DNA of 47,876 nt from Deltaproteobacteria bacterium GWC2_42_11. GTDB lineage: Bacteria; Desulfobacterota; GWC2-55-46; UBA9637; GWC2-42-11. Shown here piece after piece: positions 14,169-17,909 of this stretch. The stretch is taken from positions 1-47,876 of the forward strand of contig MGPS01000073.1 of the NCBI GenBank assembly GCA_001797495.1, read 5' to 3'. The notes under the pieces are model-generated. The model did no database searches, was not told the origin of the DNA, and saw only the letters and a list, made by a program, of their open reading frames with translations. The position numbers and the translations under genes are program-made. Every line of letters starts with the position of its first letter. Positions within the stretch are counted from its first letter, which is position 1.

Positions 14169-14206
14169 AAAATAAAGGGGACAGCCTGACCATCCCGATT
14201 CTCTTC

Positions 14207-14530
14207 TTATTTTATCGGTTCCTTCAGAGTTTCCCTGTATGTTCTTGCTTTTTTGAGGGTATCTTCCATCTCTTTGATAGATGTCTTCGATGGGTCATAA
14301 TAAACCGTATTTATCTCCATAGAGTTATAAAACCCCTTTTCCACTTTCTTAATGCCTTCAAGCCCCTCCAGGGCTTCTTTGCCTATATCAAATCACCCTA
14401 CCGCAAAAGTGACTGCCGCCTTTTTATTATCTTCTGCAAAAGATGTCTGATTTGTTATAGTTATAGCAACAAATAAAATAACTAAAAGTCCTAAAAAGAT
14501 AGATTTTTTAAACAAACTAACAAGATACAT
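14207..14530 (-). CDS. Candidate selenoprotein: secreted HMA-like protein with in-frame UGA at 14393-14395
   Basis: MYLVSLFKKSIFLGLLVILFVAITITNQTSFAEDNKKAAVTFAVG-[UGA]-FDIGKEALEGLEGIKKVEKGFYNSMEINTVYYDPSKTSIKEMEDTLKKARTYRETLKEPIK*; hairpin AAGCCC-UGGAG-GGGCUU 16 nt after UGA. Confidence 0.6.
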
Positions 14531-14612
14531 AATTTTAATCCTCCTTGTGATAAGAGAACAGTGCCTTGTTATCTGCTGTGGTTTATTATCTTCCAAATTA
14601 ACTATACTACAG

Positions 14613-17600
14613 TCACGTTTTATAATCAATATCTGCTTTCCCCCCCGGACTTCTTGCTAAAAACCTTGCACTCTTTTTTCTTATCTCTTCAAAGAGAAGT
14701 AAAATCAAAGGAAAGAAGGAAAGGAGAATCAGGTCATTTATCTCAAGCGGCGCGAGTCCAAATACCTTCTGCAGAAATGGTATGTAGATTAGGGCTGATA
14801 TTAAGATAACCTCAACAAGTATGCCGAATAAGACAAACCTGTTTTTGAAAAGTCCTATTGTGAATATAGATTCCTTTTCTGTCCTGCATGCAAAGACATT
14901 ACCTATCTGGGATGCAACTATGCCTGCAAGGGTCATGGTTGTGGCGGTTGTATAGATTATACCTTCTGATGGCATAGATGTTCCCCACTGCCAGCCTTTG
15001 CTCAAATACACAAAATAAAAACCAGCCATACAGAACAGAGCCTCAATTGGCCCAAGAAAAAAATATGCCCTTGAGAGCAATTTAAAGTCCAAAAGCCTTT
15101 TATTTCTTGGTCTCGGCGGCTCATCCATTATCCCCTTTTCAGGAGGTTCAACGCCAAGTCCGAGTGCAGGCACAACATCTGTGCCCAAATCCACAGCAAG
15201 TATCTGCATCACTGTCAGAGGCAGAGGTATTTTAAACATAACAAAGGCAATAAACGGGATAATCTCAGGTATGTTGCTGGCAAAGATATATGTCACAAAT
15301 TTTTTTATGTTTGCATAAACTGCCCTGCCTTCTTTTATTGCCTCAACAATGGTTGCAAAATTATCATCTGTTAGGATTATCTCTGCGGATTCTTTTGCAA
15401 CATCGCTCCCGCGCATACCCATTGCAATTCCTATGTCAGCCTTCTTTAGAGCAGGCGCATCATTCACGCCGTCCCCTGTAACAGCAACAACCTCGCCAAT
15501 TGACTGAAGCACCTCAACAATCCTTAATTTATCCTTTGGCTCAACCCTTGCAAAGATTATCTCTCCATGTTTTAAAATCTCTTTTAATTCTCTGTGGGAT
15601 AATCTGGATAGTTCAGCGCCTGTTATTATCTTTGTTCTGTCTTTATCTATTCCCGCCTTTTTTGCTATTGCCTCTGCTGTTAGTCCGTAGTCACCTGTTA
15701 TCATTACTATCCGTATCCCTGCCTTATGGCACATAGAAACAGCGTCCTTTACCTCTGGTCTCAGCGGGTCATTTATTGCAATAAGTCCTAAAAATATCAA
15801 ATCCCTCTCAACCTCATCTGCTGTGTATTTTGTTTCGTCCTGTGTCAGACTGTGATTGTGGTGACTGCCGGCTATTTCTTTATACGCAACTGCCAGTATC
15901 CTCAAACCTTCTGACGCCATTAAATCATTCTGCTTTAAGATTTCATTTCTTTTTTCTTCAGTAAGGTTAATAACCCCTTCACCTGTTTTTATATATGCAG
16001 AGAGTTTTAATATCTCAAGAGGCGCACCTTTTACATATGCTGTAACCTCCTTGCCCGCGCCCAGAGGGCACCCGCTATGCCCCATGCCCCTCTCATGTAT
16101 CGTGGTCATCCTCTTCCTTACCCTCTCGAATGGCAGATGTCCAATTCTGGGGTTTGTCTTTTTCATTTCATCACGATTAAGTCCTGCTTTTTCTGCAGTA
16201 ACAATCAAAGCGCCTTCTGTAGGGTCTCCTGAAATTAACCAGAAAGGTTTTTCTGAGGATGGTTGTATAAGATGTGCATTGCTGCAGAGACTGGCAGCCT
16301 TTAAGATTTCAATCACACCTTCGTCTTTCAATGCCTGTTCTTCCAGTATACTGTCATTTAGCAAAAATCTGCCAACAGGCTTATAACCTGTGCCTGCAAC
16401 TTCAATTATCTTTCCATTTACCCACAACCTCGTAACACACATCTCATTGGTTGTGAGTGTCCCTGTCTTGTCAGTGCATATAACTGTTGTGCAGCCAAGG
16501 GTTTCAACAGCAGAGAGTTTTTTTACAATAGCCTTTTTCTTTGCCATCCTCTGCACACCCATGGCAAGGGAAAGGGTTACCGTGGGGAGCAGTCCCTCAG
16601 GCACATTTGCAACGATGATGCCTATGGCAAATATAAAACTCGCTGCAAGGGAAAGTCCGCCCAGGTTGTATCCAAGTCCAAAGAATATAATCCCTGTGGT
16701 AAGGGCTATAACTGTTACAGTCTTTGTTACCCGGATCATCTCCTTTTGAAGGGGGCTCATCTCATCCTTTATTGCCTGAGTCAGATATGCGACCTTGCCT
16801 ATTTCAGTGTCCATGCCTGTTGCTGTAACAACTGCCCTTCCCTGCCCTGAAATAACCCCTGTGCCTGCAAATATGAGATTAGGCATTTCAGTCCATATAA
16901 AGTTTTTTCCGTTTTCAATAGACTCCGCTGTTTTATAAACAGGCTTTGATTCACCGGTCAGGGCACTATTATCAACCCGCATGTTCTCTGCTTCAATAAG
17001 CCTCCCATCAGCAGTCATATTATCCCCCTCTGAAAGGAGAACAATATCCCCCGGTACGATCTTTTCCGCTGAAATTTCTTTTTCAATGCCGCCCCTCAGG
17101 GCATTTACCTTTTGCGGCAGGAGTCTCTGAAGCGCCTCTACAGCCTTTTCTGCCTTATATTCCTGCCAGAAACTGAAAAGTGCATTTATAATAATTACAA
17201 GAAATATTGCCCATCCAAGTTCAGGCATGCCGGCAATAAATGCCATTGCACCGCCCAGCCATAAAAGGAGTGCAAAGAGATTTGTAAGGTTCTGCAGGAA
17301 ATCATAAATAAGTCTTTTTTTCTTTATCCTCCTGATAACATTTTGACCAACGATTCCAAGCCGCTTTTCAGCCTCTTCATTTGTAAGCCCGTTTTCTGCT
17401 GTATTGAGTTCTGAAAATATCTCTTCCCTGCTTAAAGGGATATATGCATCCCTTCCCATGCCCTCTTCCATATTTACTGCCTTTATAATATCTTCCTTTA
17501 TCTTTGCTGTAAGGAGTTTATGCCTGAATGCCCTGTTTAAAAGAAACCCTTCCAGTTTTGAAAGTATCTGGAAGTGCGTCCCGCTCTCCTTTATGGGAGA

Positions 17601-17909
17601 TATGATGAGAAAGATGATATGTATATTTTGCTTTCGTTTCATTGGATGTGGAATCCCGCGGGGAGAGACTGCAATGACAATCTTTATATCATCAACAGCT
17701 TCTGATATAGAGTGGAATATTGCGGAGCCTGTGCCTGAAAGTATGCCGTCAATACTCTCATGGTCTAAAAATGTTTTTATGGATTCCTCTGTTCCGCATT
17801 CTCTGCCAAGAATGCAGACCATATTTTTCAATGCATCCCTGTGGCTCCGTACATTGAGGTTAAGGAGGATTTGTTTATCTGATAGAAATTGTGAGAGGTT
17901 TAGGGTCAT
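14613..17909 (-). CDS. P-type cation-transporting ATPase (type II) with N-terminal PTS EIIA-Ntr-like domain
   Basis: 1098 aa; CTDKTGTLTTNEM, ANVPEGLLPTVTLS, MITGDYGLTA, TGDGVNDAPALKKADIG; first ~150 aa resemble PtsN (GSAIFHS, FLIISPIKESGTHFQILSKLEGFL). Confidence 0.9.
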   Translation of the reverse strand: MTLNLSQFLSDKQILLNLNVRSHRDALKNMVCILGRECGTEESIKTFLDHESIDGILSGTGSAIFHSISEAVDDIKIVIAVSPRGIPHPMKRKQNIHIIFLIISPIKESGTHFQILSKLEGFLLNRAFRHKLLTAKIKEDIIKAVNMEEGMGRDAYIPLSREEIFSELNTAENGLTNEEAEKRLGIVGQNVIRRIKKKRLIYDFLQNLTNLFALLLWLGGAMAFIAGMPELGWAIFLVIIINALFSFWQEYKAEKAVEALQRLLPQKVNALRGGIEKEISAEKIVPGDIVLLSEGDNMTADGRLIEAENMRVDNSALTGESKPVYKTAESIENGKNFIWTEMPNLIFAGTGVISGQGRAVVTATGMDTEIGKVAYLTQAIKDEMSPLQKEMIRVTKTVTVIALTTGIIFFGLGYNLGGLSLAASFIFAIGIIVANVPEGLLPTVTLSLAMGVQRMAKKKAIVKKLSAVETLGCTTVICTDKTGTLTTNEMCVTRLWVNGKIIEVAGTGYKPVGRFLLNDSILEEQALKDEGVIEILKAASLCSNAHLIQPSSEKPFWLISGDPTEGALIVTAEKAGLNRDEMKKTNPRIGHLPFERVRKRMTTIHERGMGHSGCPLGAGKEVTAYVKGAPLEILKLSAYIKTGEGVINLTEEKRNEILKQNDLMASEGLRILAVAYKEIAGSHHNHSLTQDETKYTADEVERDLIFLGLIAINDPLRPEVKDAVSMCHKAGIRIVMITGDYGLTAEAIAKKAGIDKDRTKIITGAELSRLSHRELKEILKHGEIIFARVEPKDKLRIVEVLQSIGEVVAVTGDGVNDAPALKKADIGIAMGMRGSDVAKESAEIILTDDNFATIVEAIKEGRAVYANIKKFVTYIFASNIPEIIPFIAFVMFKIPLPLTVMQILAVDLGTDVVPALGLGVEPPEKGIMDEPPRPRNKRLLDFKLLSRAYFFLGPIEALFCMAGFYFVYLSKGWQWGTSMPSEGIIYTTATTMTLAGIVASQIGNVFACRTEKESIFTIGLFKNRFVLFGILVEVILISALIYIPFLQKVFGLAPLEINDLILLSFFPLILLLFEEIRKKSARFLARSPGGKADIDYKT

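Follow-up and report, generated by a model that had tools for sequence, protein, structure and literature searches.

A predicted bacterial selenoprotein family with one selenocysteine, no cysteine and a possible role in exported methionine-sulfoxide repair

The selenoprotein gene and its predicted product

The window is the whole 47,876-nucleotide stretch of Deltaproteobacteria bacterium GWC2_42_11 DNA that was analysed. On its minus strand, an ORF runs for 45 codons to a TGA and continues in the same frame for 61 codons to a TAA (Table 1), exactly as the first-pass annotation had described. With the UGA read as selenocysteine (Sec), the product has 107 amino acids, and Sec is residue 46. A terminator-like hairpin was found after the distal UAA and not after the TGA, which fits the tail being part of the gene.

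Table 1. Features of the selenoprotein locus (window coordinates)
Feature	Position	Strand	Details
Predicted selenoprotein gene	14207..14530	-	ATG 14530; Sec-UGA 14395-14393; stop UAA 14209-14207
Shine-Dalgarno AAGGAGG	14540..14546	-	9 nt 5' of ATG
Predicted Sec-type signal peptide, residues 1-32	14435..14530	-	..TNQTSFA/ED cleavage; sequence pattern; AF2 helix 8-25
Ferredoxin-like (beta-alpha-beta-beta-alpha-beta) HMA/MsrA-like domain, residues 38-101	14228..14419	-	pLDDT, Foldseek, alignment
In-frame UGA, predicted Sec46	14393..14395	-	Same alignment column in 14/14 Sec members; Ser in L098
Predicted bSECIS hairpin	14359..14377	-	Stem of 7 bp (8 in the other members); 14376-14370 pairs with 14366-14360; GGA loop 14369-14367
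Terminator-like hairpin	14178..14196	-	Directly 3' of distal UAA; consensus match only
P-type cation ATPase with N-terminal PTS EIIA-2 domain	14613..17909	-	~80 nt upstream, same strand

The N-terminus was hydrophobic in every aligned member of the family except L093, which is fused to MsrB. Cleavage of this signal sequence at SFA/ED is plausible, and the signal peptide suggests that the product would be exported. The mature part was modelled by AF2 with a pLDDT of 96-98 for residues 41-100. The mature domains of the Sec-containing family members have a single Sec apiece and lack Cys.

Conservation of the UGA among homologues

The initial survey of 398 genomes of the phylum turned up seven more genes that carry a TGA in frame at this site and one that does not, and later profile searches (two classes, then the phylum again) added six more homologues. 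The aligned set from these searches of this phylum comprised 15 sequences including the window protein, namely 14 Sec members and L098, and the other 14 showed 29-47% identity to the window protein over their full length. The 13 other Sec genes, which are divergent and come from other families of the same phylum, share the exact UGA position, so that the UGA occupies a single alignment column. In L098 (G016:C89), this column holds a Ser codon (AGC), and the SECIS region has diverged. No stop, frameshift or Cys replacement was seen among the family members found. The suggestion that homologues would carry Cys or Sec at the UGA was therefore borne out for Sec, in 13 other genes, but not for Cys, the lone non-Sec relative having Ser. 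Within the alignment, no Cys was present in the mature Sec proteins; two counted for L095 fall past its TAG stop. Cys homologues, a usual though not strictly defining mark of a selenoprotein family, were found only as distant HMA and MsrA domains.

The conserved block reads F-x-V-x-U-x-D-V-G-K-x-A-L-E-G-x-x-G-V ... R-E-I-N-T-V-x-Y-D-P ... A-x-T-Y. The Ka/Ks comparison of the tail that had been proposed gave NG86 dN/dS values below 1 in close pairs with defined dS (e.g. 0.04/0.16, 0.14/0.44 and 0.16/0.63), supporting purifying selection on the predicted coding tail. A fifteenth Sec relative, L127 (G091:C1:307581-307814), looked degenerate and had an aberrant C-terminus, and two loci (L032 and L064) were left out as members because they represented noise or a contig edge. 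The family is patchy: in the window's own taxonomic family, three genomes were searched and the gene was present in that of the window alone. Scanning viral contigs with the window protein revealed no relative, and a scan of the genome contigs with one homologue recovered only that homologue's own locus. The tblastn searches of plasmids and phages returned just generic MerP/CopA domains or nothing relevant, and PHROGs gave no match.

A covarying hairpin downstream of the UGA

The stem AAGCCC-UGGAG-GGGCUU pointed out in the first-pass annotation begins 16 nt 3' of the UGA. RNAfold added one U-G pair, giving a 7-bp stem whose GGA loop begins 23 nt 3' of the UGA (MFE -12.8 kcal/mol). The rules for bacterial SECIS elements (bSECIS) specify a loop of 3-9 nt, a stem of 4-16 bp, a G in the first two loop positions, a distance of 16-37 nt from the UGA and an MFE <= -7.5 (PMC13188914), and the window hairpin falls within each of these ranges. 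No SECIS model of Rfam matched up to E 10. Taken alone, the window hairpin was mildly unusual (z = -1.6), with 16 of 200 shuffles folding equally well; the case for Sec decoding thus rests on comparison.

The comparison showed that all 14 Sec genes have a GGA-loop hairpin 23 nt after the UGA, and the 57 nt from the UGA onward align without gaps. In the 8-pair helix, 94.6% of cells were paired, and the covariation score was equalled by none of 500 shuffles and far exceeded that of slid versions of the helix. The outer pairs showed compensatory changes, with G-C, U-A and C-G exchanges as well as C-G to A-U. Furthermore, Gly56 was encoded by GGG in 14/14 genes compared with 29% of the other Gly codons in these genes (2.7e-8), and Leu54 by CTG in 14/14 compared with 42% elsewhere in these genes (6e-6), both probabilities being optimistic because they ignore shared ancestry.

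Selenocysteine decoding in the host genome

As the first-pass annotation had proposed to check, the selA, selB, selC and selD genes were sought, and the complete set was found in the window's own genome (1.75 Mb, 73 contigs). SelA was matched with an E of 7e-162, and SelB, SelD and a tRNA-Sec with a UCA anticodon lie within ~4 kb on one contig. In the SelD gene, the Sec site is likewise an in-frame UGA (motif SYASCAGUAAKM), which makes it very likely that the organism decodes UGA as Sec at other genes as well. TGA is the ordinary stop of 14 of the 37 window genes, which rules out a recoded genetic code.

The use of TGA as a normal stop, together with the relic state of the genome's own MsrB gene, would also suit an ordinary nonsense mutation that left a truncated pseudogene with a decaying tail. 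Such a mutation should have been accompanied by a sense codon in most close relatives. This was looked for, and the opposite was found: 13 divergent homologues have the UGA at the same codon and intact tails, the SECIS is conserved, the Sec machinery is complete, and the terminator-like site lies past the distal UAA. We consider this explanation exceedingly improbable. UGA can terminate translation when Sec-tRNA or SelB is scarce. The locus might accordingly serve mostly for regulatory termination, with the 45-residue peptide as the dominant product and Sec insertion as a minor, selenium-dependent event; however, those 45 residues are approximately the signal peptide and are poorly conserved, and conservation is found mostly around and after the UGA, making this reading very improbable as well. 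The claim that the UGA is decoded as Sec is strongly supported by the 13 homologues, the SECIS covariation, the Sec machinery with its Sec-containing SelD and the purifying selection. From these sequence data, the UGA is almost certainly read as Sec by SelB with Sec-tRNA, aided by the 3' hairpin.

Fold and comparison with known families

In Foldseek searches, MerP/HMA domains ranked top (1osd, TMt 0.78) and MsrA structures lower (2j89, TMq 0.49; 6yev, TMq 0.45). The hhalign comparison gave 97.0%/8e-11 for HMA versus 95.6%/1e-8 for MsrA. These fold and profile comparisons support a relationship of the domain to HMA/MerP domains, to UxxU (seleno)proteins and, more weakly, to MsrA. They agree with the first-pass description of an HMA-like secreted protein, and the Sec aligns with the second residue of UxxU/CxxC. 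The NCBIfam matches were weak; they involved VPGUxxT type 2, UxxU_metal_bind and MerP, to which the window protein added MsrB/A and MsrA. Glu72, at the spacing of the Glu in the MsrA motif GHxE, and Asn74 are invariant. Judged from the ferredoxin-like topology rather than from coordinates, Sec46, Glu72, Asn74 and the conserved Tyr98 would share one end of the sheet.

All nine members tested weakly matched UxxU_metal_bind (NF041115), an HMA-like (seleno)protein type termed 'putative mercuric reductase' in PMC13188914. Both have a small ferredoxin-like domain and the following stretch K.ALEGL.GV, and Sec46 aligns with the second U (e.g. of L129). However, the present family has one Sec instead of two, the first U/C position is neither U nor C, and its genes adjoin msr genes; the score was 26.7 bits against a cut-off of 95, and the two Sec/Cys of the model are not both present. 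The family also shares with MerP/HMA proteins the beta-alpha-beta-beta-alpha-beta fold, and with MerP the predicted export, but it lacks GMxCxxC and lies outside mer/cop clusters. The MerP model scored 17.7 of the required 92.55 bits, and PF00403 (HMA) gave no match up to E 1, the single U leaving no CxxC/UxxU metal site.

In comparison with selenoprotein MsrA (PF01625, GUFWG), Sec occupies the position of the catalytic Cys, falling within the catalytic-Cys region in the Pfam match, and the distance between the GHxE Glu and YDP is the same. In contrast, the domain has ~70 residues instead of ~150, without the long loops, and the Trp of GCFW and the resolving Cys are missing. GUF is kept only in the window copy (GUFD), and W is absent from all members; the PF01625 score was 19.9 bits, below the Pfam cut-off of 23.7. 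Positions 137-208 of the VPGUxxT thioredoxin-like type 2 profile (NF041383) matched all members tested, and the same stretch also matches MsrA proteins. The family has neither the thioredoxin domain nor the VPGU motif of that type, and the match, confined to the C-terminal part, reached 34.8 bits against a cut-off of 275.

The main rival to a redox function arises from these comparisons: the selenoprotein could instead resemble HMA/MerP/UxxU proteins in binding or chaperoning soft metals (Cu(I), Hg(II)), Sec being a ligand of the metal and not a redox catalyst. The top rank of MerP/HMA in both fold and hhalign comparisons, the NF041115 matches in 9/9 members and the alignment with the second U would all suit such a role. 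However, one chalcogen residue is left, the first U/C and any other Cys being gone in all members, and the lack of a PF00403 match also speaks against it.

Gene neighbourhood

The P-type ATPase reported upstream of the gene, which adds to the case for metal binding, was confirmed in position, but the association is peculiar to the window's own genome. No P-type ATPase was seen beside the homologues, and a partnership as a general rule was rejected. The window ATPase matched cation-ATPase models and has no HMA domain, a further point against metal binding. Its PTS EIIA-2 domain (PF00359, E 2e-17) makes it an unusual fusion, through which ion transport might be coupled to PTS phosphorylation.

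The genes of the relatives adjoin msr and molybdoenzyme genes, not metal genes. Although the count is inflated by related members (same genus or family), 12 of the 15 Sec members, including the degenerate L127, lay beside or were fused to msrB/msrA or a sulfite-oxidase/MsrP-type molybdoenzyme gene, in several arrangements and at least four families. Such neighbours were found at 0/17 HMA-type control loci from the same search, which reach only ~1.5 kb per side. The order msrB-msrA-Sec gene was present in L036, L092 and L104, and an msrAB fusion preceded the Sec gene in L094 and L100, with a molybdoenzyme before the fusion in L100. L099 showed a molybdoenzyme, a radical SAM-like gene, msrB and the Sec gene in this order; in L095, L096, L097 and L101, a PF00174 molybdoenzyme was directly upstream; and in L127, the Sec gene was followed by msrA and msrB. 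In L093, msrB is fused in frame to the Sec domain, which there occupies the place of MsrA in MsrB-MsrA fusions. The exceptions without an msr or molybdoenzyme neighbour were the window, L102 and L103.

The molybdoenzymes are PF00174 proteins of ~220-240 aa with twin-arginine (Tat-like) starts, and those of L095-L097 and L101 are sulfite-oxidase-fold proteins that would stand between MsrP and sulfite dehydrogenases in class. The molybdoenzymes showed similarity to SorA/SoxC sulfite dehydrogenases and to MsrP, in each case without reaching the cut-off; the sulfite dehydrogenases scored higher than MsrP, so that sulfite chemistry is possible.

Proposed function

The msr and MsrP/sulfite-oxidase-type neighbours in relatives make a redox role likelier than metal transport, and we regard the metal-binding explanation as unlikely. 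We somewhat favour the view that the selenolate of the putatively exported, Cys-free ferredoxin-like domain would be the redox nucleophile of a periplasmic methionine-sulfoxide repair system. The Sec might attack sulfoxides directly, as in a stripped-down MsrA with Sec in place of Cys, or MsrB/MsrA, or the MsrP-like molybdoenzyme whose gene lies alongside in relatives, might receive reducing equivalents from it. Since there is no resolving Cys, recycling would occur through an external thiol or a partner. Against an Msr role stand the MsrA score below the Pfam cut-off, the slight preference of fold and profiles for HMA/MerP and the lack of an msr neighbour for the window copy.

In the window's own genome, no PF01625 MsrA match was found at E up to 1e-3. 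Its sole MsrB match (L105, C49:13828-13974) consists of the C-terminal ~50 residues without the N-terminal half and appears to be a relic. Within the limits of assembly completeness, the Sec protein could thus be this genome's sole MsrA-like protein, and it would act there alone or with another reductase. A more specific and tentative proposal is that the family represents a minimal Cys-free, Sec-only methionine-sulfoxide reductase of the cell envelope, or an envelope redox shuttle that serves Msr enzymes through its Sec, on an HMA-like scaffold. It would then supply the sole MsrA-type activity of a genome otherwise devoid of msr genes, would seem to occur in Sec form alone and would form an evolutionary bridge between metal-binding HMA domains and MsrA. 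A link to methionine-sulfoxide repair would widen the role of selenium in envelope oxidative repair.

Relation to catalogued selenoproteins

Among the 119 prokaryotic selenoprotein families/subfamilies listed in a 2026 review, none matched the family by name, motif or model, and it does not appear to be included. No model of Pfam or NCBIfam release 20 passed its cut-off for the family, and our literature search, which returned general selenoprotein papers only, found no name for it. By the features tested, the predicted proteins appear to be a new family within the bacterial selenoproteins, distinct from UxxU, MerP and Sec-MsrA. Overall, it is probable that the gene is a genuine selenoprotein gene of a family absent from current catalogues, with a selenolate redox role in exported methionine-sulfoxide repair. 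Standard annotation would give a 45-residue fragment or nothing at this locus. To our knowledge, known selenoproteins almost always have Cys homologues, and a Sec-only (or Ser) family is the kind missed by searches that depend on them, such as deep-Sep. Families without Cys homologues may be filtered out by deep-Sep (PMC12013277), which would explain the absence of this family from the catalogues.

The searches also recovered other predicted selenoproteins. Six loci (L054, L056, L057, L063, L074 and L075) encode a full-length exported MsrA that has a UGA in frame (e.g. FALGUFWGP) and is extended at its C-terminus, a type recurrent in the phylum. The second half of the NF041383 profile led to these Sec-MsrA genes, suggesting that this profile includes an MsrA-type region. 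Two further loci, L119 (GMIUPAU) and L129 (MTUMSU), encode UxxU HMA-type selenoproteins consistent with NF041115.
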